Shown in pieces: positions 2,949-43,362 of a DNA stretch of 64,000 bases. The notes under the pieces were generated by a model. The model was given only the letters and a program-made list of their open reading frames with translations. It searched no databases and had not been told where the DNA came from. The stretch's first letter is position 1; each line of letters starts with the position of its first letter. Both the position numbers and the translations under genes were made by a program. This DNA is from Pleurocapsa minor HA4230-MV1 (GTDB lineage: Bacteria > Cyanobacteriota > Cyanobacteriia > Cyanobacteriales > Xenococcaceae): contig JAHHHZ010000019.1 of assembly GCA_019359095.1 (NCBI GenBank), positions 248,001-312,000 on the forward strand, written 5' to 3'.

Positions 2949-2981
2949 TTTATAGCTAGAAGTTTTGAGGAACTTATGAGA
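2949..2981 (-). promoter_or_regulatory. CCTCATAAGTT-type direct-repeat promoter (site 1)
   Basis: On the minus strand TCTCATAAGTT (2981-2971) is followed directly by CCTCAAAACTT (2970-2960). A -10 hexamer TATAAA (2954-2949) begins 16 bases after the start of the second unit. It points at the outer-membrane protein gene starting at 2835. Same architecture as eleven other sites in this window. Confidence 0.7.
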
Positions 2982-3003
2982 AAAGTTAATAAATGCCAAA
3001 TTG

Positions 3004-3231
3004 GGCGTTGCTGATTTGAAGTATACCATTTGCGAAGCTTATCCTTTAGGACAAGGGTACAACGTGAAACCGAAAAGTAATCTATTCGTAGCTATTAGCT
3101 GTTAGCTATTAGCTTTTTAAATTCTAGTCATCAACTGAAAAAGTTAAAAATCACATTGTCCTAAAGGACGACGCGAAGCTAGTGGTTTACCATACACCTT
3201 CGGATATGGTATACCTTGATTCAGCAACGCC
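3004..3231 (+). repeat. MITE-like dispersed repeat, copy 1 (228 bp)
   Basis: Bounded by GGCGTTGCTGA at the left and TTCAGCAACGCC at the right, which are terminal inverted repeats; the inner ends carry GTATACC and GGTATACC. The centre has an AGCTATTAGC palindromic stretch and the words CCTTTAGGAC and CCTAAAGGAC. It matches 10522-10725 in the same orientation and 47160-47338 inverted. No coding capacity and no clear target duplication at this copy. The flank 3232-3433 up to the next promoter site shows nothing I can name. Confidence 0.8.
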
Positions 3232-3433
3232 GTCTTTTGCGAGATCGAATTGTATTAGGATGTGCAATTATCAGATCGAAGAAACCTCGTTATAGACAGT
3301 GCATTTGATCTTTCGAGCGATGGCAGATAGCATTTTGCTCTTTTATTTCACCGCCTAGATCCCTTCTACTAAGCTCGATAGAGGCAATTGGATAAATTAT
3401 TACTTTGTTTTGAGGAGAAAATTTGCCAAAGCT

Positions 3434-3466
3434 CCTCATAAGTTCCTCAAATTATTTGCTTATTAA
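3434..3466 (+). promoter_or_regulatory. CCTCATAAGTT-type direct-repeat promoter (site 2)
   Basis: CCTCATAAGTT (3434-3444) then CCTCAAATTAT (3445-3455), with TATTAA (3461-3466) as -10 at the standard 16-base offset. It precedes the HdeD-like gene, giving a predicted leader of roughly 130 bases. Confidence 0.72.
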
Positions 3467-3605
3467 TAAAAAAAGTTGACGAGCATCTCTGAATTTGCCA
3501 AGACAACATCAATCAAGTTTATTCCTGGAGCGATTTTGATAGCGAGGAGGAATGCAACTATTAACAAAACCTGAAGAGAAAAACTGAATTAAGGAAGGAA
3601 ATCAA

Positions 3606-4163
3606 GTGAGAACTCAGGAACATAGAAGAGATCGGCAGAATTCAGGAGCGATCCTAGCGATGGGCATCATTATGCTCGTGCTAGGAATTATTGCCCTGAT
3701 TGGACCTTGGTTCTTAGCTTCTATAGCTGTAGAACTAATATACGCTTGGCTTTTGCTAGTTTATGGTATCGTTCAGTTTATCTATGCCTTTAAATCGAGA
3801 AGCGTAGGAGGATTGTTACTTAAGCTACTGTTTAGTATCATTTCTATAATTGTTGCGATTCTCTTATTAGTTTACCCATTAGCAGGAGTGTTTACATTAA
3901 CTCTTGTCTTGGGAGTTTATATTTTTCTCGATGGCGTTTTTCGCGTAATTCAGGCTTTTCAATTACGTCCTCTGCCAAAGTGGGGTTGGGTTCTGTTTAA
4001 TGGTATTGTCAGCATTATTCTCGGCATTCTCATTTGGTCGCAATGGCCATTCGATGCTAGTTGGATACTTGGAGTATACGTGGGTATTAGCCTAATTATC
4101 AACGGCATTGAAGTAATAATATTTCCTGCTTCAAGACCAGTGCCAGAGTTCAATAGCTATTAG
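3606..4163 (+). CDS. HdeD family membrane protein (DUF308)
   Basis: 185-residue integral membrane protein with about six hydrophobic helices in paired short loops, as in the HdeD/DUF308 family. HdeD is linked to acid resistance in enterobacteria; the cyanobacterial role is unknown. The GTG at 3606 is supported by a strong AAGGAAGGAA about 5 bases upstream and by the loss of charged N-terminal residues if the next ATG were used. Driven by direct-repeat site 2, so probably part of the stress regulon of this window. Confidence 0.85.
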   Translation: MRTQEHRRDRQNSGAILAMGIIMLVLGIIALIGPWFLASIAVELIYAWLLLVYGIVQFIYAFKSRSVGGLLLKLLFSIISIIVAILLLVYPLAGVFTLTLVLGVYIFLDGVFRVIQAFQLRPLPKWGWVLFNGIVSIILGILIWSQWPFDASWILGVYVGISLIINGIEVIIFPASRPVPEFNSY

Positions 4164-4408
4164 CCGTTAGCTCTTAGCTTTTAGCTTAAGTTATCGGTTG
4201 GCGTTGGCATTTAATATTCAGTGGGCGTGCCGTATAAACATCTGGGGAAACCCTAAATGACAGGCTCTTAGGATTGTGACCCACCACTGAATAATGTACC
4301 GCCAAGCTTCGTTTTGGCGGGGGTCTTAAACCCATAGCTCTTAGCGGACAAGACGTTTATTTTCGAGGACTTTAGAGCTAGAGGCTAAAAGCTAATAGCT
4401 AATAGCTT
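4154..4408 (+). ncRNA. Candidate structured RNA or palindromic element (family unknown)
   Basis: Intergenic block of inverted repeats. The core has a perfect 10-bp stem TATTCAGTGG (4215-4224) with CCACTGAATA (4284-4293), then a GC-rich hairpin CCGCCAA (4299-4305) with TTGGCGG (4314-4320) around an 8-base loop. The whole is flanked by AGCTTTTAGC-type repeats at about 4170-4190 and their complement at about 4385-4408. It could be an independent small RNA, the leader of the downstream NADH dehydrogenase, or a mobile palindrome. I see no Rfam family I can name with confidence. The rest of the spacer (4409-4631) holds nothing recognisable. Confidence 0.35.
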
Positions 4409-4631
4409 AAAAGATAGACTTATGACTCAAAAATTGCTTTTGGCAGAGCGGCTTCCTGAAGGTGCGCGTCTTTAGCTGTTTTACTGATACGATCGCTGCT
4501 CATCCTCATTTCTGACCGACGCACTGTTTAAATTTATACTGCGCCGTCATCATCGTCGAACAAAGCGTATTTTATAAAGATACCACCCAAGCTTTTCTCA
4601 AAAATTTACTCACCTACAAAACTTAAAAATC

Positions 4632-5897: not shown

Positions 5898-6066
5898 ATT
5901 TTAACAAGGCTTCCGCATTGAAAGGCAGGAGGCAAAAAACAGGGCGTAAGTTTCGTCTAAAAACCAAACTTTCCCTATTTTTCCTCACCTAAATTTGTTG
6001 TTTTCTGAAGTTGAGAAAAATTCACCTATAGTTAATCTCAGAGATTTTAAAACGGCATTAGCCTAT

Positions 6067-8965: not shown

Positions 8966-8999
8966 ACTCATAAGTTCCTCATAAGTTTTTTTGTAATCT
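8966..8999 (+). promoter_or_regulatory. CCTCATAAGTT-type direct-repeat promoter (site 3) of psbO
   Basis: ACTCATAAGTT (8966-8976) then CCTCATAAGTT (8977-8987), with TAATCT (8994-8999) as -10 at a 17-base offset. From here to the psbO start the leader is closely similar to 31932-32090, upstream of the small secreted protein. Confidence 0.72.
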
Positions 9000-9125
9000 T
9001 CTATGTAGAGTGTTAACCAAGACTGTTTGTCGCGCCTATAAAAACCTCATTCTATGGCAATGGCATCTTGCTTGAAAGACTTCCACTCTTATTCAATCTT
9101 CATTAAATTCAAAAAGATTAAAGTT

Positions 9126-9953
9126 ATGAGAAACCGTTCGATTATTGCTTGCTTCCTTGCTTTATGTTTGGGAGTCCTAACTGCCTGTAGCAATTCTGGT
9201 GAAGTGGATAAAAGAGACTTAAGCTACGACGACATTGTAAATACAGGACTCGCCAACTCTTGTTTAACATTACCCGAAAGCAGCCGTGGTACGATTCCCA
9301 TTGAGGCTGGCAAACAGTATGCAATCCAAGACATGTGTATTGAACCCAGGGAATTCTTTGTCAAAGAAGAACCTGTCAGTAAGCGTCAAAAAGCCGAGTT
9401 TATTGAAGGAAAGCTGTTAACTAGATATACCTCTAGTCTCGACCACATTCGGGGAACTATCGACACCAACGATGATGGTACTCTAACCTTTACCGAGATT
9501 GATGGAATCGATTTTCAACCAACTACGATTCTTTTGCCTGGTGGTAAAGAAGTTGCTTTTATGTTTACAGCCAAGCAATTCCAAGGAACTACTACAGCTA
9601 GCACCGATAGCATTAATACTTCAACTGATTTTGAGGGTGAATTCCACGTTCCTTCCTATCGCGGAGCAGTATTTCTCGATCCCAAAGGACGTAGTTTTGC
9701 TAGAGGTTACGATCACGCTGTAGCTTTGCCAGGACTTGCCGACGATCCAAGATTCTCTAAAGCCAACGTTAAAGAGTTTGTTTCTAGCAAAGGTAAAATG
9801 TCTTTGAACGTCACGAAAATTGATAGTGATACGGGAGAAATTACTGGAGTATTTGAGAGCGAACAGTTTTCTGCGACAGACTTGGGTGCAGGAGAACCAG
9901 AAGAAATTAAAATCAAAGGCATTTTCTACGGCAGAATTGTAGATAATGCATAG
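9126..9953 (+). CDS. psbO: Photosystem II manganese-stabilising protein PsbO
   Basis: 275-residue extrinsic photosystem II subunit that stabilises the Mn4CaO5 cluster on the lumenal side. It carries the PsbO landmarks in order: YDDIVNTGLANSC, the partner cysteine in IQDMCIEP (conserved disulphide), FVKEEPVSKRQKAEF, LLTRYTSSL, DGIDFQP, STDFEGEF, VPSYRGAVFLDPKGR and FESEQFSATDLGAGEP, ending IKGIFYGR. The start at 9126 gives an MRNRS signal peptide ending in LTAC. That lipobox-like end also occurs in some other cyanobacterial PsbO proteins. An in-frame ATG at 9054 would add 24 residues but ruins the signal peptide. It is a lone gene under a stress-type direct-repeat promoter, so it may be a second, conditional copy. 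Confidence 0.95.
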   Translation: MRNRSIIACFLALCLGVLTACSNSGEVDKRDLSYDDIVNTGLANSCLTLPESSRGTIPIEAGKQYAIQDMCIEPREFFVKEEPVSKRQKAEFIEGKLLTRYTSSLDHIRGTIDTNDDGTLTFTEIDGIDFQPTTILLPGGKEVAFMFTAKQFQGTTTASTDSINTSTDFEGEFHVPSYRGAVFLDPKGRSFARGYDHAVALPGLADDPRFSKANVKEFVSSKGKMSLNVTKIDSDTGEITGVFESEQFSATDLGAGEPEEIKIKGIFYGRIVDNA

Positions 9954-20015: not shown

Positions 20016-20048
20016 AAAATAGTGAAGAAGTTTGAAGAAGTTATGAGG
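20016..20048 (-). promoter_or_regulatory. CCTCATAAGTT-type direct-repeat promoter (site 4)
   Basis: Minus strand: CCTCATAACTT (20048-20038), then CTTCAAACTTC (20037-20027) and a third partial TTCAC. TATTTT (20021-20016) is the -10, at the 16-base offset. It points to the Ca2+ ATPase starting at 19910. The divergent 29-residue frame at 20163 is about 115 bases away on the other side. Confidence 0.68.
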
Positions 20049-20850: not shown

Positions 20851-21227
20851 AGCGATTACTCATTCTATAATCTAGCTTTTATTTGATTTTACCTTTTCTT
20901 TCACCAATTCTTGAATGTAATAAGAGACTTACAATGATTTTTCAGGTGTTTTAGTATCTTGTCTATAGCTTTTAGCAGAATACACTAATGCTACTGCGAT
21001 CGCGAGTAGATTTTCCTCATAAGTTCCTCAAGTTTGCACTGTAATCTTAAAAATTAACTAGAGCAGCTATTTACTGATGTTACGCACTAATTAATCGCTA
21101 AAGACTGAGTAAAGGAAAAACATTAATTTGCTATTTATGCAATAAATCTACTAAAAATGTGTCCTTAAATCAATGCTTTTAGACCATAAAGTAATAAAAA
21201 TAATTGCTCAGTAAAACGGTTAGAAAA
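20851..21227. other. Intergenic region with promoter site 5 and a short repeat
   Basis: Contains direct-repeat promoter site 5 (21015-21047) and, at about 21075-21096, a word close to ACTGATGTTACGCACT then AATTAATC. A near copy of that word lies at 29409-29430 before ftsH. No coding frame is supported elsewhere in the spacer. Confidence 0.5.
21015..21047 (+). promoter_or_regulatory. CCTCATAAGTT-type direct-repeat promoter (site 5)
   Basis: CCTCATAAGTT (21015-21025) and CCTCAAGTTTG (21026-21036), with TAATCT (21042-21047) at the 16-base offset. It precedes the 87-residue protein gene and, beyond it, phosphoketolase. The paralogous gene at 43363 has its own copy of the site. Confidence 0.72.
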
Positions 21228-25087: not shown

Positions 25088-25459
25088 TCACCAACCCAAA
25101 AAGCCTGAAATTTGACTTGCTAAAGTAGTAGGATCAAAAGGCTTAGTAATAAATCCTTTAATACCAGAGGCATAGAAGCGACGGCGATCTGCTTTCTGAG
25201 TTTTGGCAGTTAGAAAAATTACGGGAATATCTTTAACTTGAGGATTATCTTGTAGCTGCTTGAGAGTTGCTAGTCCATCCATTTCGGGCATCATTACATC
25301 CAAGACGATCGCGTCTGGCTGTTCGGTTTCGGCAAGCGCGATGCCCTCTCGCCCCGAAGCTGCGGTCAATACCGACCACCCCGTTCGTTTTAACCCGACA
25401 CGAGCCACTGCTAAGATAGAGGCTTCGTCATCTACCAGTAAAATACGTTTGACAGTCAT
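25088..25459 (-). CDS. Single-domain response regulator (CheY-like)
   Basis: 123 residues, receiver domain only. Acidic pocket D10-D11, phospho-acceptor D54 in VLDVMMPEMDG, and the conserved Lys in ITKPFDP are all present, so it should be phosphorylated. It has no output domain. Its start overlaps the stop of the upstream sensor kinase gene by four bases (ATGA), so translation is coupled and the pair is a natural two-component couple. Confidence 0.93.
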   Translation of the reverse strand: MTVKRILLVDDEASILAVARVGLKRTGWSVLTAASGREGIALAETEQPDAIVLDVMMPEMDGLATLKQLQDNPQVKDIPVIFLTAKTQKADRRRFYASGIKGFITKPFDPTTLASQISGFLGW

Positions 25460-27459
25460 AATAAGCCAGATTTAGGCAAAGTAAAATAAAACGTACTTCC
25501 CTTACCAAACTCACTCTCAGCCCAGATGCGACCTCCGTGTTCTGCAATAATCTTATAACAAATCGGCAACCCCAAGCCAGTACCTCCTTTGTCTCGCGAA
25601 TCTGAAGCATCTACTTGTTTAAATCGCTCAAAAATGCTGCCCAGTATATCTGCGGGAATGCCGCGCCCTGTATCGATAACTTTAAATAAAACCTCGTCTT
25701 CTAAGTTATCGACTGTAACCCAGACTGAACTATTTTGCGGAGAAAATTTGATGGCATTGCTAAGTAAATTGGTCAAGGTTTGATGAATATGATCCCCATC
25801 GGCATTAATGGTAATAGAAATAGGTTCTGCTATTAAAGTAATGTTTCCAGCCTTTGCCATCGGCTGCATGACTTCTATTGCTGACTGGATTAGATCGCCG
25901 GCATCACAAGGCTGTTTCAGCATTTGGATTTTGCCTGACTCGATGCGCTCTAGATCTAGGACATCGTTTACCAGGCGCACTAAGCGGTCTGTATTGGTCA
26001 CGGCAATATTCAGCATTTCACGGTCTTCTTCTGATAACCCACTTTGAGGACTGGTGACGAGCAATTTTAAAGCACCATAAATAGAAGTTAAGGGGGTGCG
26101 TAATTCATGACTGACTATCGAAACAAATTCGTCTTTCATTCTTTCGGTAGCTTTGCGATTGCTTATATCGCTAATTAAACTAATAAATCCTTTTACCCCT
26201 CCTTCTTTATCAAGATCGGGAATATGAGTAACATTAACCCAATGTAAGGAGCGATCGCTCAATTCAAGCTCAGTTTCATAGGTTACTGTTTGTCCTGTCA
26301 AAGCTAATTCTAGATGATGTTTAATTTGCTGGTAATATGCCTCACCCAAAATCTCTTGAAGATGACTGCCAATAATTTGAGTAGGGGATTTACCAAACCA
26401 ATCTCCAAAAGTCTGGTTGACAAATTGATAGCACTGTCGATTATCGACATAAGCAATTAATGCTGGTAGTGCATCTGTAATTAAACGAAGTTGTGATTCG
26501 CTCTGTTGTAATACAGCTTCAGATTGTTGGCGAGTAATAGCAATAGAGGCTAAATTAGCACAGGCTTCAATTATCTCTAACTCTTTTGGCTCGGGTAGTT
26601 TTGCTTCGGTAAAATACAGAGCGAAAGTTCCCAAAACTTTTCCCGTATTTGATTTAATCGGTTCAGACCAACAGGCTTGAAAACCGTGGGGTAAAATTAG
26701 GTGTTGGTAGTCTGCCCATAAAGGATCGGTAGCAATATTACTAACGATTACTCGCCGACCTAAATACGCTGCCGTACCGCAAGAAGTAGCTTTTGCTCCA
26801 ATGGGTAAACGATCGATCGCCCTAATATATTCTTGGGGCAATTGAGAACTAACAAAAGGTCGTAAATGCCTGCCGTCGTTTTCCATTATCATAATAGTCG
26901 AAGTCAAATTTGGAGATAAACGATCGATCTGTTCGCTCAGTTCTGATAAAGTATTCTTGAGCGTCTCTCCCCGTGCGATCGCGCTCATCGTTCGATTCTG
27001 AATCTGCTGCAAGCTTTCTATCCATTTACGTTCGGTAATATCTAAGATAATTCCGTCTAACCAAAGAAGATTGCCATCTGGATCGAAAACTCCTTGCCCT
27101 TTGTCCTTGATCCAGATAATTGTTCTATCTGAGCGAATAAGTCGATATTCAATTGTATAGGGTTTTCTTCGGGCGATCGCCTCTTGGACTTCTCGAACAA
27201 CTAAATCGCGATCTTCTGGGTAAATAATGCTTCTTATAGACCGATTTTGATTTTGAATAAAATCGGCAGCAGGATAACCTGAGATCGTCATCATTTCATC
27301 ACTCAAAAAATCCATTGTCCAATCAGCATCGTTAGCACAACGGTAGATCGCCCCTGGAACATTGGCGATTAAAGTTTTGAACCTTTCTCTTATGATGTGT
27401 TCGTAATCTGGTTCCATTTTGCTGCTAGGAAGCGAGCGCTCTGATTGAATATATAGCAA
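25456..27459 (-). CDS. PAS-GAF-PAS sensor histidine kinase
   Basis: 667-residue soluble histidine kinase with no membrane helix. In order: PAS (about 25-145), GAF (about 165-315), PAS (about 325-440), HisKA with VSHELRTPLTSIYG, and HATPase_c with GTGLGLPICYKI and GKGSTFYFTLP. The GAF contains no obvious bilin-lyase cysteine context I can be sure of, so a ligand or redox signal is as likely as light. Partner is the overlapping CheY-like regulator. It lies within the direct-repeat regulon cluster but has no such site directly upstream. Confidence 0.93.
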   Translation of the reverse strand: MLYIQSERSLPSSKMEPDYEHIIRERFKTLIANVPGAIYRCANDADWTMDFLSDEMMTISGYPAADFIQNQNRSIRSIIYPEDRDLVVREVQEAIARRKPYTIEYRLIRSDRTIIWIKDKGQGVFDPDGNLLWLDGIILDITERKWIESLQQIQNRTMSAIARGETLKNTLSELSEQIDRLSPNLTSTIMIMENDGRHLRPFVSSQLPQEYIRAIDRLPIGAKATSCGTAAYLGRRVIVSNIATDPLWADYQHLILPHGFQACWSEPIKSNTGKVLGTFALYFTEAKLPEPKELEIIEACANLASIAITRQQSEAVLQQSESQLRLITDALPALIAYVDNRQCYQFVNQTFGDWFGKSPTQIIGSHLQEILGEAYYQQIKHHLELALTGQTVTYETELELSDRSLHWVNVTHIPDLDKEGGVKGFISLISDISNRKATERMKDEFVSIVSHELRTPLTSIYGALKLLVTSPQSGLSEEDREMLNIAVTNTDRLVRLVNDVLDLERIESGKIQMLKQPCDAGDLIQSAIEVMQPMAKAGNITLIAEPISITINADGDHIHQTLTNLLSNAIKFSPQNSSVWVTVDNLEDEVLFKVIDTGRGIPADILGSIFERFKQVDASDSRDKGGTGLGLPICYKIIAEHGGRIWAESEFGKGSTFYFTLPKSGLL

Positions 27460-27520
27460 TACTAGACAATGTTAGGACGTTTTTTTACTAATACCTACTA
27501 TTTACTCTACTACCTAATCT

Positions 27521-28014
27521 TTATTGGGCGTAATTTCTAATATACGATCCATCAACCAATCTCCAGTTATGAATGTCATAAATGTTTAATTCCAATCCAT
27601 CGGCACCTGCTTGCTCTATTTGACGTACGTAATCACCCCAGCTACCTACTGTAGAACTGTTGAGACTTGCAAAAATGGGAATATCCACCATCTTTTTAGC
27701 CCGACGAATACGCTCTAAATAAGCTTCTGAATCGACACTAAAATCTGATTCGGGATAGGTTTTTGTAGGGTGAGCGAAACGATGATATGCTTCATATCTT
27801 TCTTCTAGTAGTTGTTCTTCAAACAGAGAATGCAATACCACTGCTCCTGCGTCAGCATCTTCCATCCGTTTAATATTATCGATATTTTCGGTTAAAGGTG
27901 CTGCTACACCAACAACCAAAGGCGATTACCCTAAAGGACTAGCTTCGCGTCGCGCTCCGCGTAGCCTTCGGATCGCAATGTCTTACCTAGATAAGTTGTG
28001 GATAGGTCTGCCAT
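27521..28014 (-). pseudogene. Dihydroorotate dehydrogenase-like gene, disrupted and truncated
   Basis: The minus-strand start at 28014 reads MADLSTTYLGKTLRS, then an inserted element shifts the frame to a stop. The original frame resumes as LVVGVAAPLTENIDNIKR at 27919 and continues to about 27580 in the pattern of the PyrD-like family (AGAVVLHSLFEEQL, VDIPIFASLNS, GADGLELNIYD). It then ends after a short unrelated tail at 27521. Normal relatives are over 300 residues, so the 3' half, including most of the FMN barrel, is missing. The upstream promoter repeat (site 6) and an AAGGAGG ribosome site remain intact. Confidence 0.85.
27927..27970. mobile_element. 44-bp mini-insertion inside a HIP1 site
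   Basis: GC-rich, partly palindromic element (reads CCTAAAGGACTAGCTTCGCG and onward to GTAGCCTTCG on the plus strand). It is flanked by GAT (27924-27926) and GAT (27971-27973). Removing it with one GAT restores GGCGATCGC and the open frame of the DHODH-like gene. A related, shorter element sits at 49897-49922, also splitting a GCGATCGC. Confidence 0.7.
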
Positions 28015-28040
28015 TTATTTGCCTCCTTATTATTATCTCT

Positions 28041-28072
28041 AAACTAAAAAAATCTTTTGAGGAAGTTATGAG
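28041..28072 (-). promoter_or_regulatory. CCTCATAAGTT-type direct-repeat promoter (site 6)
   Basis: Minus strand: CTCATAACTT (28072-28063) then CCTCAAAAGAT (28062-28052), with TAGTTT (28046-28041) at the 16-base offset. It points at the disrupted DHODH-like gene and is back-to-back with site 7. Confidence 0.65.
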
Positions 28073-28123
28073 TAGTAGACAGAACATTAGTAAAGTAAGC
28101 CATTAGAAGAAATAGCTTTTGCT

Positions 28124-28156
28124 CCTCATAAGTAGCTCATATTTTCTGATTAACAT
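28124..28156 (+). promoter_or_regulatory. CCTCATAAGTT-type direct-repeat promoter (site 7)
   Basis: CCTCATAAGTA (28124-28134) then GCTCATATTTT (28135-28145), with TAACAT (28151-28156) at the 16-base offset. It precedes the degenerate receiver gene at 28197 by about 40 bases. Confidence 0.65.
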
Positions 28157-28196: not shown

Positions 28197-28616
28197 ATGG
28201 TTTTTACTCGATCGCCTCTTAAAAATAAATTATTGATGTTACAGCTAGCTCGCAAACACATCTTAGCGATCGAAGTTGCTAAAGATCTTCGCGAAATTAT
28301 TAAACGCAGCTTGGGAAATACGGCAAATTGGCAAGTGTTTTCGGTAAACACGATCGCTGAAGGATTGACTTTAATTGAAACACAGCAACCCGATGTAATT
28401 TTAGTCGAAGCCGAGCTGCTCGAACGATGCGATCGCCAGATTTGGCAACAACTACAAACTACTGCTTCTAATCGATCTATTCCCCTAATTTTTATGGCAT
28501 CAAGAGTTAGAGCCATGGATCGACTTCAATTCCAAGAATTAGGTGCAGCCAAGGCGATCGCTAAACCTTTTGACCCAAAAGAATTGGTAGAAACGATTTC
28601 TCAAGTATTAAAGTGA
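28197..28616 (+). CDS. Degenerate receiver-domain protein (phospho-Asp replaced by Glu)
   Basis: 139 residues with a full receiver fold: IIKRSLG helix, strand VILVEAELLE, late Lys in AIAKPFDPKEL (K123). The acceptor position that should read D is E71, and the acidic pair at the first strand is changed (LAIEVAKDL instead of VDDE). A Glu at that place can mimic the phosphorylated state, so it may be a constitutive or phosphorylation-independent signal protein. No output domain. Driven by site 7, so it may feed back on the regulon. Confidence 0.8.
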   Translation: MVFTRSPLKNKLLMLQLARKHILAIEVAKDLREIIKRSLGNTANWQVFSVNTIAEGLTLIETQQPDVILVEAELLERCDRQIWQQLQTTASNRSIPLIFMASRVRAMDRLQFQELGAAKAIAKPFDPKELVETISQVLK

Positions 28617-28637: not shown

Positions 28638-28670
28638 TTTCATAACTTCCTCAAACTTGCAATCTATAGT
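28638..28670 (+). promoter_or_regulatory. CCTCATAAGTT-type direct-repeat promoter (site 8)
   Basis: TTTCATAACTT (28638-28648) then CCTCAAACTTG (28649-28659), with TATAGT (28665-28670) at the 16-base offset. Transcription would begin near 28677, so an upstream TTG at 28670 cannot be the start of the phosphoribosyltransferase. Confidence 0.7.
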
Positions 28671-28699
28671 TGGAATTAATATCGAGAGTAGTAAAAATT

Positions 28700-29404
28700 A
28701 TGACCAGAGTTTTTTTTAATAGACAAGAAGCGGGACAAAAATTAGCTCAAAAACTTACCGCCTATACTAATCATCCTCAAGCAATAGTATTGGGACTACC
28801 TCATGGTGGCGTACCTGTAGCTTATGAAATTGCCAAAACTTTAAATCTTCCCTTGGATGTTTGTTTGGTCAAAAAATTAGGTCTGCCTAGCCATCCAGAA
28901 ACAGCAATGGGTGCAATTGCCGAAGATCAACTGTTACCTGATTACTGTGGCAACATCACTATTATTAATCAAAACACGGCTCATCTTGACGGAGTTGATT
29001 CAGAACAGATTCAGGCACTTGCTGCTCGAGCAAAAGTTGAATTAAGATGGCGCGATCGTTGTTATCGAAGCTTTCGTCCCATGCTGAAAATTCCACAGCG
29101 TTCTGTTATCGTCGTTGATGATGGCATTGCTACGGGTCAAACTATGGAGGCTGCGGTAACTGTTTTGCGACGGCATAAGCCAGAGAAAATTATTATTGCT
29201 ACTCCCGTGGCATCAAAGTCAGCTATAGAACACTTAGCAGCTAAAGTAGATGATTTTGTTTGCTTGATGAAACCCAAATCATTAGTTGCAGTGGGCTTTT
29301 GGTATGAAGATTTTACTCAAATCAAAGATCGAGAAGTATGCGATTTACTTGCTCAAGAAACTTGCAAAACTTTAGCTCACCAAACTTCAGCAATGACTCG
29401 TTAA
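28700..29404 (+). CDS. Phosphoribosyltransferase domain protein
   Basis: 234 residues of the stand-alone PRTase fold. The PRPP-binding signature VIVVDDGIATGQT (about 136-148) and the early LGLPHGGVPVAYEIA loop are intact. Members of this branch (like mycobacterial Rv0571c) occur in hypoxia or stress regulons; the nucleobase or other acceptor is not known. The ATG at 28700 is set by the promoter position and by the family N-terminus (MTRVFFNRQEAG). The FtsH gene follows after 149 bases on the same strand. Confidence 0.9.
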   Translation: MTRVFFNRQEAGQKLAQKLTAYTNHPQAIVLGLPHGGVPVAYEIAKTLNLPLDVCLVKKLGLPSHPETAMGAIAEDQLLPDYCGNITIINQNTAHLDGVDSEQIQALAARAKVELRWRDRCYRSFRPMLKIPQRSVIVVDDGIATGQTMEAAVTVLRRHKPEKIIIATPVASKSAIEHLAAKVDDFVCLMKPKSLVAVGFWYEDFTQIKDREVCDLLAQETCKTLAHQTSAMTR

Positions 29405-29553: not shown

Positions 29554-31476
29554 ATGTTCCAACAGCAAAATCCCCATAAAACACCAAAATTGAGTCAATG
29601 GAAATTGACTTTAATTGTGAGCGGGATCGGCTTGATTTTATTTAGTTTATTCCTAACTTCAACATCATCCCCAAAGTCCCAATCTTACAGTAAGTTTATC
29701 AACTTGGTAGAGAGCGATCGCGTCGAGCAGGTAACTATTAGCCCCGATCGTCTTAAATATACTCTCAAATCAGAGGGATTTGCCGACAACTCAGAGCAGG
29801 CTTTTACTACAGTCCCAGTGACTCAAGATACAGAGTTACCGAAAATTTTGCGTCAACATCAAGTAGAATTTTCCGCAACACCTTCTAATAGTGGTAGTGG
29901 GTTTTGGGGTTTTCTCCAACTATTATTTTTCCTCTTTTTATTGGTCAATTTGGGCGGTTTGTTATTCAGTCGCAGTCAACAAGGTACAGCGAGTCCTTTT
30001 GCTGTTGGTCGTAGCAACGCTCGTATTTACTCCGAAGGAAGTCTGGATGTTACCTTTGATGATGTAGCAGGAGTCGATGAAGCTAAAACAGAACTTTATG
30101 AAATTGTTGATTTTTTGCAAAACAAAACCAAATACGCTCTTCTAGGAGCAAAAATACCTAAAGGTGTGTTGTTAGTAGGACCTCCTGGTACGGGTAAAAC
30201 TTTATTGGCAAAAGCGATCGCTGGAGAAGCTCAAGTTCCTTTCTTCAGTATCTCTGGCTCGGAGTTTATCGAAATGTTTGTTGGAGTAGGTGCATCGCGA
30301 GTGCGAGATTTATTCGATCGCGCTAAAAAACAAGCTCCTGCCATTGTCTTTATCGACGAACTAGATGCCTTGGGTAAGTCTCGCGCCTCTGGTGGAGCTT
30401 TTATGGGCGGTAACGACGAACGAGAACAGACACTCAATCAACTACTGGCAGAAATGGACGGGTTTGAACCCAACACAGGAGTAATTTTACTGGCTGCTAC
30501 TAACCGTCCCGAAGTTCTCGATCCAGCCTTGTTACGTCCTGGTCGTTTTGACCGTCAGATTTTGGTAGATCGCCCCGATAAGTCGGGAAGACTGGCAATA
30601 TTAGAAGTTCACGCTCGAAATGTTAGTTTGGCTGAAGACGTAGATTTAGATAAACTCGCTGCCCGTACCCCTGGTTTTGCTGGGGCAGATTTGGCAAACT
30701 TAATCAATGAATCTGCGCTACTTGCTGCTCGAAATAATCGCTCTGCGGTAACTATGGCAGATTTTAATGAAGCTATTGAAAGAATTTTGACAGGATTAGA
30801 GAAAAGATCGCGGGTACTCAATGAAACTGAGAAGAAAACCGTAGCCTATCACGAAGTCGGTCATGCGATTGTGGGTTCGTTGATGCCTGGAACTGATAGA
30901 GTCGAAAAGATCTCGATTGTTCCTCGTGGTATTGGCGCATTGGGCTATACCTTACAGTTACCAGAAGAAGATCGTTTCTTGGCGATCGAAGACGAAATTC
31001 GCGGTCGTATTGCCACTTTATTAGGAGGACGTGCTGCTGAAGAATTAATCTTTGGCAAAGTATCTACGGGAGCTAGCGACGATATTCAAAAAGCTACTGA
31101 GCTTGCTGAAAGATACGTAACTCTCTATGGCATGAGCGATCGCTTGGGCCCCATCGCTTTTGAAAAGGTACAGCAGCAGTATCTTGAGGGTATGACTAAT
31201 CCTCGCCGTCAAGTCAGCCAAAAAGTTGCCGAAGAAATCGATCTAGAAGTCAAAGCCGTAATTGATGGCGCACATCAGACTGCTAAGACTACTCTTTTAG
31301 AAAATCGCGGACTATTAACAGCATTAGCTCAAATTCTCTTAAAACAAGAAATTTTAGCAGGAGAACAACTGCGATCGCATCTGGGTCAAGCTCAAAGAAA
31401 TGAACGGGTAGATCGATGGTTGCAAACAGGAAAGTTAACTCAAAATAATTTACTTGCTCCTGCTTTATCTAAATAA
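29554..31476 (+). CDS. ftsH: FtsH-type membrane AAA+ zinc protease
   Basis: 640 residues. Two membrane helices (about 17-37 and 113-133) flank a small periplasmic domain; then AAA+ ATPase with Walker A GPPGTGKT (209-216), Walker [11 protein letters not shown], second-region [19 protein letters not shown], and a peptidase domain with zinc site HEVGH (433-437). Degrades membrane and soluble proteins, in cyanobacteria notably photodamaged D1. This copy is shorter in conserved termini than housekeeping FtsH and sits with stress genes, so it may be an accessory homologue. Two tiny membrane proteins follow it. Confidence 0.93.
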
Positions 31477-31931: not shown

Positions 31932-31964
31932 CCTCATAAGTTTCTCATAAGTTTTTTATAACCT
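31932..31964 (+). promoter_or_regulatory. CCTCATAAGTT-type direct-repeat promoter (site 9)
   Basis: CCTCATAAGTT (31932-31942) then TCTCATAAGTT (31943-31953), with TAACCT (31959-31964) at the 16-base offset. The following leader to 32090 is a paralogue of the psbO leader. Confidence 0.72.
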
Positions 31965-32090
31965 TCTATGTAGAGTGTTAACTAAGAGTATTTGTCGCGC
32001 TTATCAAAACAGCACCCTATGGCAGTGGCAAGTTACTTGAAAGTCTTTCACTCTTATTCAATCTTTATTGGATTCCAAAGAATTAAAGTT

Positions 32091-32375
32091 ATGCAAAATA
32101 TATCAAGATTTACTGTTGGGTTGGTTTTAATTTCTGTACCATTTTTACTTGTAAAAGCTGCTTATGCAGATACCGATCGCGATGCTACACCAGAAGAGAA
32201 TACTAAAATTGTTGAAGTATTAAAGCAAAATAATTGTACGCTTACCGACGATATAGATTATATTGAGGGTATTGGATTTAAAGCAGAAGATGTTCAATGT
32301 GATGATGGTAAAGTATATGATGTATTTTTAGACGACAATTTTAACATTACCTCTAGACGAGAAGATCTTGATTGA
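32091..32375 (+). CDS. Small secreted protein, stress-linked (94 residues)
   Basis: A signal peptide (hydrophobic 7-24, ending YADTD) is followed by an acidic mature part with one pair of cysteines (NNCTL and VQCDDG) and the terminal block YDVFLDDNFNITSRRED. The layout resembles PepSY-like small periplasmic proteins, but I cannot confirm that. The ATG at 32091 is preferred since it starts the signal peptide; an in-frame ATG at 32019 also exists, mirroring psbO. A broken paralogue lies at 8849-8932. Confidence 0.75.
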   Translation: MQNISRFTVGLVLISVPFLLVKAAYADTDRDATPEENTKIVEVLKQNNCTLTDDIDYIEGIGFKAEDVQCDDGKVYDVFLDDNFNITSRREDLD

Positions 32376-33679: not shown

Positions 33680-34012
33680 TTAGAAGTTAACTGCACTTGC
33701 TACCCCTAGCTTGGGCATGGTTATAGTTAGCACCCCATCAATAAATTCGGCTCTAGTTTTTTCGGTTTGAATTGCTACAGGTAAACGAGTATGACATTTA
33801 ATCTGCCCGTAATTCAATTGAGAAGGAATTAGTTCTTTTTCGTCTGTAGACTTATCTGGGTTGCAAATTCCCAAAATCGAAACAAATCTAATTCGGGCAT
33901 TAATAATTAGATCTTCGATTTTAACTCCTGGAAGTTCTGCCTTAAGAATTAACTCTTCATCGGTTTCATTGAATTCGATGTTTGGACACCAAGTTTGATT
34001 TTGTTCGCTCAT
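33680..34012 (-). CDS. Hsp20/alpha-crystallin family small heat-shock protein
   Basis: 110 residues. The alpha-crystallin domain is seen as FNETDEELILKAELPGVKIEDLII, then an insert, then LPVAIQTEKTRAEFIDGVLTITMPK, the classic final strand. The N-terminal region is very short and there is no I-x-I tail, so oligomer size may differ from canonical Hsp20. AGGAGGGAT precedes the ATG. The leader (34013-34103) carries promoter site 10 and fold-back elements that could control translation. Likely an ATP-independent holdase. Confidence 0.82.
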   Translation of the reverse strand: MSEQNQTWCPNIEFNETDEELILKAELPGVKIEDLIINARIRFVSILGICNPDKSTDEKELIPSQLNYGQIKCHTRLPVAIQTEKTRAEFIDGVLTITMPKLGVASAVNF

Positions 34013-34109: not shown

Positions 34110-34142
34110 AGATTAAGCAAAAGTTTTGAGGAACTTATGAGG
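34110..34142 (-). promoter_or_regulatory. CCTCATAAGTT-type direct-repeat promoter (site 10)
   Basis: Minus strand: CCTCATAAGTT (34142-34132), CCTCAAAACTT (34131-34121), TAATCT (34115-34110) at the 16-base offset. It serves hsp20 and lies 16 bases from the end of the upstream response regulator gene. Confidence 0.72.
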
Positions 34143-34157: not shown

Positions 34158-36029
34158 TTAGGGGTTAGGTGTTTTGCTTTGAATTGTGCGGATTCGCGAT
34201 AGGCGATTGAGGATGCGAGTAGCTAATTGTGTTCCCGTAACTGGTTTGCTGATGTAATCGTCCGCACCGATATAAAATGCTTGCTCCTGAGTTTGTAAGT
34301 CTTGATGAACGGTGAGAAACAGAACGGGTAAATGACTCCAGTTTGGGTCACTTCGTAGCATACGACATAATTCAATGCCATTAACATCTGGCATTTCTAT
34401 ATCTAATATCACTAGGTCGGGTGAAGTAGCTTGAAGAACTTGCCAAAACTGATGAGGGTCATTAAGGGTGGTAATTTCAAATCCCCAAGGTTTGAGACTT
34501 GTCCGCATTGCCTCTATGAATAAGGAATCATCATCGACAATAGTTATCTTAGTTTCAGCCCCAGAACGTCGCAGCAGTTGAGATACAGCATTCATTGCCT
34601 GAGTTGAAGTTACGGGCTGCACCAATAAAGTATGTTTTTTACCGCGCATAATTTTAAGACGCTCGGTAAAATTTTTATCGGTGTTAAATAAGGCTGTTTC
34701 TGAGACAATTACCACAATAGGTAGTAAGGGCTTTTGCTGGTGTAGTTGTGCTAGTAAATCTAAACTATCTATCGGACTATCTCGATCCGTTTTGGTTCTA
34801 ATCTGAAATATCCTGAGCAAAACAATCGCAGGGCGATCTCGCTGAATTATTTCTGGTGCTTCTGATGCAGTTATCGCGATCGCCGTTCGCAGATTATGCG
34901 CTGCTGCTTGGGTTGCTAATTGCTCAGTAAAATCGCGATCGTTATCAACAATTAACAATAAGGGAAAACTGTCTAAAACTAAATTAGATCCAGGATTGTA
35001 ACTGTTAAATTTATCTCTCAAGTCGTTAAGCGATCTACTAAAAGGCTCGATTTGGTCTGGCTGAGGAAAAGTTTCAGCATCGAGAAAGGCTTCTAGTTCT
35101 CGTGCTAGCTTCGAGCCATTATAAAAGCCCAGACTTCCTAGAGAACCCGCTAATTTGTGGGCTGCTAAGATCGCTTCCCGTTTTAATTCTTGGTTGAAAT
35201 TATTTGTTTTTAAGGCGATCGCTACATTCTCTAAAACTACTAAGCGATCGAACATTGCTTCTTTGTGTTGCAGCCAAAGATTAGCAATTTCTGCTGGATC
35301 GGCAGATTCGACTGCGGTATTAGCTACAGAGTCAGTTTGTGATTCTGCTTTATCTGGTAGTGGCTTAAGACGGTAGCCTATGCCGTAAACCGTCTCAATC
35401 AAATCTTTGGCTGCACCTGCCTCTTTCAACTTTTGACGTAGTGTTTTAATATGTGTCCTAACTGCTCCTTCAGTCGGCGGATCTTCAAAAGTCCAGAGAT
35501 TTTCAATAACTCCCTCAAGGCTAAAAACACGATTGTGGTTGCGTAAAAATAGCTCTAACAAAGCATACTCTTTTGCTGTTAAATTTAACGGTTTCTCATT
35601 ATAAAATGCTTCTAAGCTATTAAGATTGAGACCCAGATTACCCCACTTTAATGTAGATGATGAAGCTTGACCTTCTCGTGGTAGTAGGACACGAATTCGC
35701 ACCGTAAGCTCATCAAAATTAAATGGCTTAACTAGATAATCATCAGCCCCCGCATCAAAACCCTTGACAATATCGGTGCTGTGATCGCGAGCAGTTAACA
35801 TTAGAACTGGCACACTATAATCGCGATCGCGAAGTTTTTTACACAGACTAATGCCATCAATTTTGGGCAACATCACATCTAAAACCACCAAATCGTAGTT
35901 AAAAAGCGTAATATATTCCCATGCTTCCTCACCATCAGAAGCAATATCTACCGCATATCTTTGAGCGATGAGATGGTTAGATAGTGCATCTAGCAACACT
36001 TCATCATCGTCTACCAATAAAAGTCTCAT
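34158..36029 (-). CDS. Multidomain OmpR-type response regulator: REC-wHTH-HPt-REC-REC
   Basis: 623 residues. REC1 has D51 in VLDVMLPKIDG; an OmpR/PhoB winged helix spans about 128-222 (RVFSLEGVIENLWTF...VYGIGYRL); HPt with AHKLAGSLGS (H about 291); REC2 (about 345-470) where the acceptor Asp is lost (IVLLRIF); REC3 (about 498-612) intact with ILDIEMPDVNG. A phosphorelay hub that binds DNA through the winged helix. It lies directly upstream of promoter site 10 and inside the regulon cluster, so it is one candidate for the factor that reads the direct repeats. Its first codons are duplicated at 37392-37464. Confidence 0.92.
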   Translation of the reverse strand: MRLLLVDDDEVLLDALSNHLIAQRYAVDIASDGEEAWEYITLFNYDLVVLDVMLPKIDGISLCKKLRDRDYSVPVLMLTARDHSTDIVKGFDAGADDYLVKPFNFDELTVRIRVLLPREGQASSSTLKWGNLGLNLNSLEAFYNEKPLNLTAKEYALLELFLRNHNRVFSLEGVIENLWTFEDPPTEGAVRTHIKTLRQKLKEAGAAKDLIETVYGIGYRLKPLPDKAESQTDSVANTAVESADPAEIANLWLQHKEAMFDRLVVLENVAIALKTNNFNQELKREAILAAHKLAGSLGSLGFYNGSKLARELEAFLDAETFPQPDQIEPFSRSLNDLRDKFNSYNPGSNLVLDSFPLLLIVDNDRDFTEQLATQAAAHNLRTAIAITASEAPEIIQRDRPAIVLLRIFQIRTKTDRDSPIDSLDLLAQLHQQKPLLPIVVIVSETALFNTDKNFTERLKIMRGKKHTLLVQPVTSTQAMNAVSQLLRRSGAETKITIVDDDSLFIEAMRTSLKPWGFEITTLNDPHQFWQVLQATSPDLVILDIEMPDVNGIELCRMLRSDPNWSHLPVLFLTVHQDLQTQEQAFYIGADDYISKPVTGTQLATRILNRLSRIRTIQSKTPNP

Positions 36030-37464: not shown

Positions 37465-37559
37465 CTAGGTTTTGAGTATAATTTGGGGTTTTTCTTCACT
37501 TTAGCAAGCTTATTATAAGTGGATGATGTGCGATCGCTATTTTTTCTAGGAAAAATTTT

Positions 37560-37592
37560 CCTCATAAGTTCCTCAAATTACTTGCCTATATA
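37560..37592 (+). promoter_or_regulatory. CCTCATAAGTT-type direct-repeat promoter (site 11)
   Basis: CCTCATAAGTT (37560-37570), CCTCAAATTAC (37571-37581), TATATA (37587-37592) at the 16-base offset. The universal stress protein start is only about 22 bases further on, so the leader is very short here. Confidence 0.75.
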
Positions 37593-37614
37593 TTATTTAA
37601 GCGAGGTAATTAAG

Positions 37615-38259
37615 ATGTTTAAGAAAATTTTAGTAGCAATAGACCGTTCAATCACCAGCAGGGAGGTTTTTGAAATTGCTATATCTCTGGCAAAAACAAC
37701 TGGAGCAAGCTTGATGCTGCTGCACGTTTTATCCAATGAAGAAAGACAAAATCCAACTCTGTTTGTCTACTCTAGTATCAGATACAATGTGATAAGCGAA
37801 GTACTTCTCAAAGCGTATGAAGAACAGTGGCAAAAATTTGAAGAAGAAGGATTAGAATTTTTGCGCTCCCTTGTTAAAGAAGCAACAACCGCAGGAGTTG
37901 ACGCTGAATTTACCCAATTTTGGGGTAATCCTGGACAAGATATCTGCGACTTAGCCCAAGCATGGTCGGCAGATTTGATCTTGGTCGGTAGTAGAGGTTT
38001 GTCTGGTATTAAAGAGATGTTTCTAGGTAGCGTTAGTAATTATGTAACCCACCATGCCCCTTGCTCGGTTTTCATTGTGCATAAAACTGGCAACACCTCG
38101 TCATCTCTCTCGATCAATTCTGATTCTCAATCGTTTCAGGACAAGCAACGAGAATTAACTACTTCTACTTCTGAAAAATCAACTTTTAGAAAACGTGAAT
38201 TTGTAGCTAAATCAATTTCTCAGTTGGAAAAAAAAATCCCAATCTTCAGCAAAATCTAA
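37615..38259 (+). CDS. Universal stress protein (UspA family)
   Basis: 214 residues. The UspA fold runs from MFKKILVAIDRS to the ATP-binding motif LILVGSRGLSGIKEMFLGSV (G-2x-G-9x-G-S type) and CSVFIV at about residue 155. A polar tail of some 55 residues (Ser/Thr/Lys-rich) follows and is not part of the domain. The ATG at 37615 is dictated by the promoter and the family start. The rubredoxin-MBL gene follows 53 bases later and a broken USP copy lies at 39049. Confidence 0.92.
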   Translation: MFKKILVAIDRSITSREVFEIAISLAKTTGASLMLLHVLSNEERQNPTLFVYSSIRYNVISEVLLKAYEEQWQKFEEEGLEFLRSLVKEATTAGVDAEFTQFWGNPGQDICDLAQAWSADLILVGSRGLSGIKEMFLGSVSNYVTHHAPCSVFIVHKTGNTSSSLSINSDSQSFQDKQRELTTSTSEKSTFRKREFVAKSISQLEKKIPIFSKI

Positions 38260-40244: not shown

Positions 40245-40428
40245 AATAAGCTGTTTTTTCACTCATCAATTGCTAGATCGAGCCATCGAGCGACAGTTGT
40301 TAAAGAAAATTCTTGGATCGTTTGTTGATTTTTCGTTGACACTTTTATCAAAAACATTACGCCTTCATCAACGCCAAAGTAATAAGTGTCCTAAGATAAA
40401 TCCATATTGCTATAAATAACGATCGAGA

Positions 40429-41208: not shown

Positions 41209-41262
41209 GATTTTCTCCTTGGTCTTTTGTTGTTTATTTATTACACTCGGTATATCACGTCT

Positions 41263-42030
41263 CTACTGACTGATAAAAACGATATAACCGATGTTTTTTC
41301 CCTGTTGTTGAAAGCTACGGCGCATCTTTTTGACTCTGTGACGCAGACTGGGTTTAGTTAAAACATTCGAGATAATTTTGACTGTTCCTAATAAACCTTC
41401 ATCCCTGATCATTTGATCGAGATTAAGTAATCCCATTTTTCCTGTTTGCTGTTGCTGTATATTTAAACCAGCATCTTTACAAGCCTTCGACCACTCCGAG
41501 ACAGTTAAAGGATTAGCATTGACTCGAATAGATTTAGATAAGCTTTTACGCACTTGTTCAGCATGATCGCGGACAAACATTTCATGGGAAAGAAACTTAC
41601 CCCCTGGTTTGAGACAGTTTCTAATTCCTGATAATATCGCGGCTTTCCCTACATCCGACTGCATGGTGAGGATCGCTTCGGCTAAGACATAATCAAACTT
41701 GTCTGTAATCTTATCTAATTGAAAAATATCTCCTTCTAAAATAGTCACTTGGTCTGATAATCCCGCAGCTTTGATATTTTCCCTAGCTTTAGCCACGCTA
41801 TTAGGGTTTTTTTCGATGCCCACTACACGCACGTTAAATCTTTTAGTTATTTCAATAGCACTTTCGCCACAGCTTGCTGCCAATTCTAATACCGTTTCTC
41901 CTGGTTGGAAATTAGCCCAAGTAAACAATTGTTCTGTGGCTGCTTTTCCTCCAGGACGTAATATTCTCTTTCCTGCTGCTGCTAAGACTTGATAACCAGG
42001 GACGGTAGCAAAATTAAGAGTAGTTGTCAT
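41263..42030 (-). CDS. Class I SAM-dependent methyltransferase
   Basis: 255 residues. Motif I appears as VLELAASCGESAIEI (the usual GxGxG is weakened to AASCG), motif II as VVGIEKNP, then ILEGDIFQLD and a motif post-II at LKPGGKF. The N-terminal AAGKRILRPGGKAATEQLF resembles other cyanobacterial small-molecule methyltransferases. Substrate unknown. A weak copy of the direct-repeat promoter lies upstream (42069-42101). Its partner is the cupin-globin gene downstream. Confidence 0.85.
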   Translation of the reverse strand: MTTTLNFATVPGYQVLAAAGKRILRPGGKAATEQLFTWANFQPGETVLELAASCGESAIEITKRFNVRVVGIEKNPNSVAKARENIKAAGLSDQVTILEGDIFQLDKITDKFDYVLAEAILTMQSDVGKAAILSGIRNCLKPGGKFLSHEMFVRDHAEQVRKSLSKSIRVNANPLTVSEWSKACKDAGLNIQQQQTGKMGLLNLDQMIRDEGLLGTVKIISNVLTKPSLRHRVKKMRRSFQQQGKNIGYIVFISQ

Positions 42031-42068
42031 GAGTTATATCCCAACTCGATACTCTTACTCTGACATTA

Positions 42069-42101
42069 ATTTTATGACTCGTCTTTGAGGTAGCTCATGT
42101 T
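42069..42101 (-). promoter_or_regulatory. Weak CCTCATAAGTT-type promoter (site 13, tentative)
   Basis: Minus strand: a full second unit CCTCAAAGACG (42090-42080) and TAAAAT (42074-42069) at the 16-base offset, but the first unit is only AACATGAGCTA. It points to the methyltransferase gene. Listed as a possible member only. Confidence 0.4.
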
Positions 42102-42199
42102 TTGTTTGAGAATAAAGTTTTGTTTAAAAGCATCGAGCGCAGGTTACGGTAATTTTTTAAAGGATCGAAAAAGTAGGCAAAACTCTTTTAAATAAAAGT

Positions 42200-42781
42200 T
42201 TACAACCAATGTTTAGGATAAGGTCTACCAGGAGCCAAATTATTAAAAATTATAGTAACTAAAACGATTCCGATCGACCCCGCCAAAGCCGGAGTAAAAA
42301 TAAAGTGCCAATCTGCACTACTCAAAACTCCGATTAAAGCGACTGCTCCTGATGGTGGATGTACTGTTCTAGTTAATTGCATTAATTTAATCGTAGTAGC
42401 TACCGCTAGAGCCATAACCCAAGGGGCTGTACCAAATAAATGTACTAAAAATACGCAGGTCAACGCACCGATTAAATTTCCCCCAATAACATTGCGTGGT
42501 TGAGCTAAGGGACTATCAGGAACACCAAACACTAATACCGCAGTTGCTCCAAAAGGTGCAGCAATCAAAGGATAAGAACTATAAACTGAAAGATAAGCTA
42601 AAACTGCAATGCCAATAAAACTACCAACATAAGAAAGTAAAATATGTTGCCAGGAAAATTTTGGTTGGTGTTTTCGACTCTTTCGCAAACTGTGAAATTT
42701 ACGTATCCAACGCCTTAAAACACTCTTATTAGTGCCTTTTTGAGAGAATTTTTTTCTTACCGTATTATTTCTTAACAGCAT
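42200..42781 (-). CDS. HPP family membrane protein
   Basis: 193 residues. Cytoplasmic basic N-terminus (about 1-45), then four hydrophobic helices with the defining HPP motif in RTVHPPSGAVALIG and PFGATAVLVFG. Members include nitrite transporters in cyanobacteria and chloroplasts. With the haem-globin fusion next door, nitrogen-oxide handling is a possible theme, but this is inference. The ATG at 42781 is the only one before the basic region; a later in-frame start is possible. Confidence 0.85.
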   Translation of the reverse strand: MLLRNNTVRKKFSQKGTNKSVLRRWIRKFHSLRKSRKHQPKFSWQHILLSYVGSFIGIAVLAYLSVYSSYPLIAAPFGATAVLVFGVPDSPLAQPRNVIGGNLIGALTCVFLVHLFGTAPWVMALAVATTIKLMQLTRTVHPPSGAVALIGVLSSADWHFIFTPALAGSIGIVLVTIIFNNLAPGRPYPKHWL

Positions 42782-43362
42782 TATTTTTTAACAGTATCGA
42801 TTATAGGAGCGACTACGCATCCGTGATCATTAGTTAAAATAATCTCGACCTAGGTAATTGTTTATTGTTGTTAATATATCATGGTTTTTGTTAAAATATC
42901 ATGACAAAACAGCATTAAAGTATTTAAAGATACAGAAATATCTAATACCTTGCTTAAGGCTTGCTTATAGATCGATCCCACTTTTTAGGTTCTAATTTTT
43001 GGCTTAAATAAACTGGGAATATTTTCCAATAAATGTTAGCTAAAGGTTACTCGTCGCTAGCTCAATTACAGCAAATCTCCATCTTTCAAGATTTAGCGAT
43101 CGCCTAACAACTACATGGTGTAATTACAGGAAGACTAGAAATCAAAAAAACTGGCGATCGTTATCTGATCTAGCATGCTCTAGCTATACTTCAATCTGAA
43201 GTTTATTTTTCCTCATAAGTTCCTCAGATAACTGCTCTAAATTTAAAACTAATTAGATCACAAAAGGAGAAAGAAATTTATTTAAATATTTTAATCATGT
43301 TGGATATGCAATTTAAATGTAAATCAGCTAAATAAGATTAATTGGTAAGTTGAACCTAAAAA
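42782..43362. other. Intergenic region with a decayed cNMP-binding-like fragment and promoter site 12
   Basis: At 43033-43173 one frame, broken by a single stop, reads LQQISIFQDLAIA then HGVITGRLEIKKTG, like the first strands of a CRP-type cyclic-nucleotide-binding domain; it is too short to be functional. Promoter site 12 lies at 43211-43243. The remainder (42782-43032) shows no gene. Confidence 0.4.
43211..43243 (+). promoter_or_regulatory. CCTCATAAGTT-type direct-repeat promoter (site 12)
   Basis: CCTCATAAGTT (43211-43221), CCTCAGATAAC (43222-43232), TAAATT (43238-43243) at the 16-base offset. It precedes paralogue B of the 87-residue protein, just as site 5 precedes paralogue A. Confidence 0.7.

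Follow-up and report, generated by a model that had tools for sequence, protein, structure and literature searches.

Which factor binds, and in answer to which signal, a short promoter element that occurs twelve times in one window of the Pleurocapsa minor HA4230-MV1 genome? This window is a stretch of 64,000 nucleotides (contig JAHHHZ010000019.1, positions 248,001 to 312,000, forward strand), and the element, called the box below, consists of two 11-base units in direct repeat followed by a -10 hexamer. Judging from sequence comparisons, stress, dark and low-oxygen genes are probably switched on jointly through this paired 11-base element by an RcaC-like response regulator whose gene lies among the sites.

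A search with CCTCATAAGTTCCTCA at up to 3 mismatches gave exactly 12 matches in the window versus 0.58 expected, and the largest number obtained in 100 shuffles was 3. These are the twelve sites of the initial annotation (Table 1); the one placed at 28072 is real, but it starts at 28073. The layout of the class is CCTCAYAAGTT-CCTCA-N11-TAnnnT. As had been claimed, the distance from the start of unit 1 to the TA is 27 bases (16 from that of unit 2) in 11 of the 12 sites, and 28 bases (17) in the psbO site at 8966. Also, 11 sites are intergenic and lie at most 300 bp upstream of an open reading frame (ORF) on the same strand, as compared to 9% of random positions and strands (p ~3e-11). The site at 37560 was scored as ORF-internal because the ORF caller chose a GTG upstream of the box; with the gene start taken behind the box, every site faces a gene in the right orientation, as first described. 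A refinement of that description is that base 6 of the box divides the class in two, T-type (CCTCAT...) and C-type (CCTCAC...); it is T in all twelve window sites.

Table 1. Boxes and regulatory genes of the window (positions in the window; the -10 is included in each box).
Feature	Position	Strand	Context
Box TCTCATAAGTTCCTCA and -10	2949..2981	-	before 2209-2901 (no Pfam family), then beta-lactamase-fold and SDR genes
Exact box and -10	3434..3466	+	before DUF308 gene 3606-4163
Box and -10, spacing one base longer	8966..8999	+	before second psbO copy 9054-9953
Box and -10	20016..20048	-	before P-type cation ATPase 16977-19910; box-gene pair also in G013, G016, G005
Exact box and -10	21015..21047	+	before DUF1830 gene, ORF of no assigned kind, phosphoketolase 21896-24313
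Box and -10	28041..28073	-	before dihydroorotate-dehydrogenase-like remnant, then histidine kinase 25456-27459, receiver 25088-25459
Box and -10	28124..28156	+	before receiver-domain gene 28197-28616
Weakest box (3 mismatches) and -10	28638..28670	+	before phosphoribosyltransferase 28670-29404, FtsH 29554-31476
Box and -10	31932..31964	+	before 31992-32375 (no Pfam family)
Exact box and -10	34110..34142	-	before Hsp20 gene 33680-34012; directly past 3' end of regulator gene
Exact box and -10	37560..37592	+	before universal stress protein gene (ORF 37519-38259; likely start behind box)
Exact box and -10	43211..43243	+	before small ORF 43363-43626, Sua5/YrdC gene 43646-44281
RcaC-like response regulator, 623 aa, REC - winged helix - Hpt - C-terminal receiver part	34158..36029	-	proposed box binder
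Histidine kinase PAS-GAF-PAS-HisKA-HATPase	25456..27459	-	candidate partner; Stanieria orthologue behind a box
Stand-alone receiver	25088..25459	-	candidate relay protein
Second REC - winged helix - Hpt regulator	50152..51213	+	other recognition helix, no box nearby; unsupported as binder

When the whole genome was scanned (5.6 Mb), every exact match (5) and every T-type match within one mismatch (8) fell inside the window. The other two one-mismatch matches are the C variant CCTCACAAGTTCCTCA, and the C-type form is scattered in the genome outside the window. At 3 mismatches the genome gave 48 matches versus 34 for a backwards control, so that weak matches outside the window are mostly due to chance. 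A profile built from 77 sites (10 from the window, 7 from elsewhere in the same genome) gave 24 matches at E ≤ 0.03, 12 inside the window and 12 outside. By a looser criterion and without random control, all 12 outside matches precede a same-strand ORF (50 aa or more allowed) within 373 bp; for the match at C21:192383 this requires a start within the called ORF. Five of these 12 were absent from the profile training set, and two of the five precede phosphoribosyltransferase and Hsp20 genes, families that are boxed in the window too. Base 6 is C in 11 of the outside sites; the exception, with T, stands before psbA at C36. Weaker profile matches (n = 5, E 0.09 to 0.73) lie mostly inside ORFs (4 of 5) and were not counted as sites. 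Random placement relative to start codons, which would have spoken against the class, was thus not what the genome presented: all 24 matches at E ≤ 0.03 precede a same-strand ORF, 37560 and C21:192383 by way of an internal start.

The spacing to the -10 is also kept in genomes other than our own. From the window and the fetched loci we collected 113 sites with at most 2 mismatches to CCTCAYAAGTTCCTCA, 94 of them from other genomes (93 usable). TA stands at offset 27 from the box start in 84 of the 93 sites (next best offset 27 of 93), with TAnnnT at that place in 66 of 93. Many of these sites are orthologues of window sites; for others, namely the C-type sites and much of G003, orthology is not obvious. 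All 25 C-type sites have the T of the -10, and 24 have the A. Conservation falls between the second half-site and the -10 and again past the -10, the flanks differ, and no TTGACA-like -35 hexamer was seen in the alignment of other-genome sites. The box thus has the direct repeats of about 11 bp of OmpR/PhoB-class promoters, and has them in place of a -35 at a fixed distance from the -10 (84 of 93 other-genome sites). The OmpR/PhoB-type regulator suggested at first agrees with the fixed -10 in unseen genomes, with the missing -35 hexamer and with the linkage of the box to RcaC-like genes described below.

Two other explanations bear on this layout. The box could be the -35/-10 of an alternative sigma factor acting without a separate activator, and the fixed box to -10 spacing would suit such a promoter. 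However, the conserved part consists of two direct 11-bp repeats (about -39 to -18) with an ordinary TAnnnT, not of an own -35/-10 pair free of activator repeats, the boxes cluster round response-regulator genes, and Pfam matched no sigma factor among 50 scanned window ORFs (of 63 listed); this explanation is disfavoured and appears very improbable. Twelve copies within 40 kb might also recall a non-regulatory repeat element spread by copying, to which we give next to no credit: conservation is confined to the half-sites and the -10 with differing flanks, the sites are oriented upstream of genes, and the same genes stand behind the same box in other genomes.

With at most one mismatch, the box was present in 29 of 60 genomes (our own included), the backwards control giving 5 matches over all 60. 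At E ≤ 0.1 the profile matched all 27 genomes of the family (2-65 matches each) and, in other families, 24 of 33 genomes (0-10 each). At E ≤ 0.01 it matched 127 of 291 genomes of the order, and at E ≤ 0.001 30 of 194 genomes of the phylum, all but three in the same order; these order and phylum counts are lower bounds because the filter was stricter above 40 genomes and few candidates were scored. Within these limits, the profile search gave no box match in many genomes of the order and in almost all genomes outside it.

T-type boxes are concentrated in an island that recurs in four relatives (G003, G005, G013 and G016), with 7-17 T-type matches each at one mismatch or less versus at most 4 in other relatives. 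Base 6 is T in 73 sites and C in 2 in the window and the fetched island contigs; outside the islands C was counted 23 times, T 14 and A once, with a search pattern that favoured T. In G013, which is Stanieria cyanosphaera PCC 7437, the island lies on the conjugative plasmid pSTA7437.01, with transposases and a CyRepA1 gene in the vicinity. Box-gene pairs kept across islands, not all of them everywhere, are those of universal stress protein (Usp), Hsp20, Ca-ATPase, receiver, phosphoribosyltransferase, dihydroorotate-dehydrogenase-like protein, psbO and the phosphoketolase operon. The boxed psbO of the window is a second copy, the other one being on contig C25, and two copies were found in 4 of 27 genomes searched. 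The Stanieria island additionally boxes ppsA and a kinase-receiver unit, it contains Dps and OsmC genes, and an exact box precedes a petC-psbA pair (psbA at L211:38760-39803). The D1 protein encoded there reads S, D and A at the positions of D170, E189 and E333 in solved D1 chains (a numbering that we assume) and lacks the LDLA tail. A sentinel or rogue D1 (PsbA4) without LDLA has its highest expression in the dark in Cyanothece, according to passages of PMC9640542. Altogether, the plasmid seems to bear a complete acclimation programme.

The regulator at 34158 has the RcaC-family architecture REC - Trans_reg_C - Hpt - REC, as indicated by Pfam matches and alignment. Among 59 relatives, its orthologues (72-84% identity) were confined to G003, G005 (a partial copy at a contig end), G013 (STA7437_RS23000) and G016, and most other family members have a paralogue near 50% identity. 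In a tree of 48 rows, made of regulators from this analysis only and with no named RcaC sequence, the five 34158-type regulators form one clade A (100/100) with a sister clade B (98/85; A+B 99/91), and a third box-linked group holds plasmid and f33 forms. A box (position weight matrix, PWM, score ≥18) lies within 1.45 kb of 20 of 28 regulators with the helix VRTHIK[GT]LR versus 3 of 18 others (3 of 17 without 50152), three rows fetched for a box and the window's own regulator being excluded; the p-value of 3.3e-4 is nominal because the helix split was drawn after the regulator list had been seen. The idea of linkage came from five box-regulator adjacencies. A narrowed set, without these loci, clade A and two short regulators, gave 12 of 20 versus 2 of 15 (p 0.006, also nominal), a weaker test because the loci that gave the idea were dropped.

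This linkage of the box to RcaC-like genes of the OmpR/PhoB class recurs in several cyanobacterial families with differing gene orders. Plasmids of Chroococcidiopsis CCNUC1 and Leptolyngbya boryana have the regulator first, then a T-type box and then Usp, and in three f33 genomes, fetched for their boxes, the box lies beside a large RcaC-like protein. Of the two OmpR-type regulators initially put forward as binders, the one at 34158 is supported as a candidate by box linkage and by the co-occurrence of its orthologues. The other one, at 50152, is disfavoured because its recognition helix differs and no box is nearby. No box was found near the paralogues at C35 and C36 either, nor, at the PWM cut-off, in 5 of 12 clade B neighbourhoods (L121, L122, L124, L128, L129).

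Several observations weigh against this pairing of box and regulator: a box within 1.45 kb is missing for 8 of the 28 helix-matching regulators and present for 3 of the 18 others, no RcaC-like gene lies in 17 of 20 box regions of other families, many of the sites in other genomes are orthologous to those of the window, and the island regulator and its boxes may have been co-inherited as one segment. A strict code, in which T or G of the helix would call for T or C in the box, fits clades A and B and is broken by Nostoc C052, whose regulator has helix G yet a T-type box beside its gene. Also, a second 11-bp direct repeat, ATTTCATN4ATTTCAT, occurs in 6-12 copies each (at most 1 mismatch) on plasmids L243, L245 and L246 (Chroococcidiopsis, Leptolyngbya boryana, Nostoc C052). 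It lies mostly among metal-transport genes, and was set aside as a different box; its presence just before RcaC-like genes as well weakens an exclusive pairing of these genes with the CCTCA box. Another factor might bind instead, such as 50152, the Crp/Fnr protein encoded in the Stanieria island or some unlinked protein, with the RcaC-like genes as targets or neighbours, and the regulators lacking a box and the box regions lacking a regulator would be in keeping with it. We hold this to be improbable: the box is a direct repeat whereas Crp/Fnr sites are palindromes, 50152 has another helix and no box near, and in several families RcaC-like genes are again linked to the box, in varying gene order.

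Taken as a whole, we consider it likely that the sites are activator-dependent promoters bound by the RcaC-like 34158 regulator in response to a dark or low-oxygen signal. The half-sites, CCTCAYAAGTT then CCTCAAA..., lie head to tail over about -39 to -18 and would stand in for the -35, with a sigma-70-type -10 (TAnnnT) at a fixed distance, which is the layout expected of a PhoB-class activator dimer contacting RNA polymerase. The activator would most likely be the regulator encoded among the sites, and the kinase and the stand-alone receiver (25088-27459), the latter presumably placed like RcaF, could perhaps feed it as in RcaE-RcaF-RcaC. The chromosomal paralogue (clade B) would serve the C-type boxes.

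The 34158 regulator resembles RcaC, which has the architecture REC - winged helix - Hpt - REC, and the box shares with the L box, of consensus TTGCACAN4TTGCACA, a direct repeat of 11-base period. The sites read CCTCAYAAGTTCCTCA and not the L box consensus, the 34158 regulator has an extra receiver-like stretch, and the boxed regulon consists of stress and fermentation genes, with no phycobiliprotein gene among the boxed genes that were annotated (part of all boxed genes). According to passages of PMC8256508, RcaC is an activator that binds an L-box and acts together with RcaE and RcaF. The box is also close in layout to the PhoB pho box of Escherichia coli phoA: both have 11-bp direct repeats replacing the -35, a TGTCA/CCTCA-like core and a -10 placed 16 bases after the second core. 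The core has other bases, and here the regulator is multi-domain and the regulon unrelated. RfpB, of far-red light acclimation, is likewise an RcaC-type paralogue. By protein-sequence reading, our own genome holds at C36:254000-279000 (L296, L297) an apparent far-red light photoacclimation (FaRLiP) cluster with an RcaC-like, RfpB-like regulator, which has another recognition helix, 39% identity to the 34158 regulator and one weak T-type site only (E = 0.015, before psbA of the cluster). That this psbA encodes a low-oxygen D1' form was considered and dropped, as its best solved matches include chains that we take to be far-red D1.

As for the signal, the islands box phosphoketolase, phosphoenolpyruvate (PEP) synthase, Usp, Hsp20, the second psbO and the D1 without Mn-ligand residues. 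In 20 regions of other families, chosen for strong matches, C-type boxes precede pyruvate:ferredoxin oxidoreductase (PFOR), PEP synthase, pyruvate formate-lyase (PFL) activase (then AdhE), a hydrogenase maturation protease (then HypA), Usp and others. Ten proteins were tested, and NCBIfam scores were above cut-off for PFOR, PEP synthase, PFL activase, AdhE, HypA and the protease superfamily, the remaining gene names being read from sequence. Dense rows of C-type boxes were seen in L294 and L295 (G043, G140) before oxidoreductase-like and hydrogenase maturation genes, with seven boxes within ~6.3 kb in L295. From this gene content we infer that the boxed genes form a dark/low-oxygen regulon; the signal is most likely darkness, low oxygen or a matching redox state, because the targets take in fermentation and the metabolism of pyruvate and PEP, along with stress proteins, the export of cations, and photosystem II parts that are spare or inactive. 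Passages of PMC11368403 describe a transient induction of nifJ and of a dihydroorotate dehydrogenase gene in dark microoxic Synechocystis.

Many boxed targets are equally compatible with a general stress regulon, the boxes before PFOR, PFL activase-AdhE and hydrogenase maturation genes were seen in other families, and a broader stress or redox signal is possible. An RcaC-family regulator could bind in answer to general stress, light or plastoquinone redox instead of low oxygen, the fermentation genes being only part of a broad acclimation regulon. The boxed Usp, Hsp20, FtsH and DUF308 genes and the Dps and OsmC genes of the Stanieria island would agree with this, as would the fact that RcaC itself is light-driven (passages of PMC8256508). 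We find such a signal rather unlikely, since PFOR, PFL activase-AdhE, hydrogenase maturation, PEP synthase and a D1 without Mn-ligand residues suit dark anoxic metabolism.

Fermentation-gene switch-on is poorly known in most cyanobacteria. Control by CyAbrB2, SigE, LexA, Rre34 and RpaA is described for Synechocystis and Synechococcus in passages of PMC11368403 and PMC13421787, and Rre34, a response regulator, may help at nifJ (PMC11368403). The targets of CyAbrB2, SigE, LexA and Rre34 at hox and nifJ are similar dark microoxic genes, but these passages name no direct-repeat box or RcaC-type regulator, and RcaC does not occur in PMC13421787. In the open-licence literature, no title or abstract beginning found names a box of this sequence, and no publication was found for RcaC with L box and direct repeat or for RfpB promoter motifs. 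The motif terms were also not found in the part of the OrrA literature examined, so that OrrA of Anabaena is neither supported nor excluded as owner of the box. The same box stands before fermentation genes in other cyanobacteria, and a sequence-defined box with a fixed -10 and a candidate regulator makes the regulon predictable from genomes and directly testable. Also, the paired paralogous regulators and the T and C box variants constitute a natural case of a copied regulator separating from its parent.

A bolder reading, to which we give somewhat less than an even chance, sees in the island a mobile and self-contained 'night kit', which in Stanieria forms part of a conjugative plasmid. The kit would have a kinase, a relay protein and an RcaC-like regulator to itself, and also a private T-type box, which a single base would separate from the C-type regulon that the sister regulator serves on the chromosome. 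Under dark anoxia the kit would replace functional photosystem II parts by spare ones, or by ones incapable of water oxidation, and switch the cell to fermentation, and in many Cyanobacteriales the box would act as a promoter element dedicated to anoxia.

Some further features of the window were recorded. No match was obtained when 2.3 kb of the window was searched against phage records. Behind the 28073 box, the dihydroorotate-dehydrogenase-like gene (27300-28045, minus strand) is damaged, with its frame broken near the start and its middle part missing; its orthologues in G013, G016 and G005 are open (338-339 aa). Finally, an ORF of 1696 aa without Pfam match occupies 52189-57279 on the minus strand.

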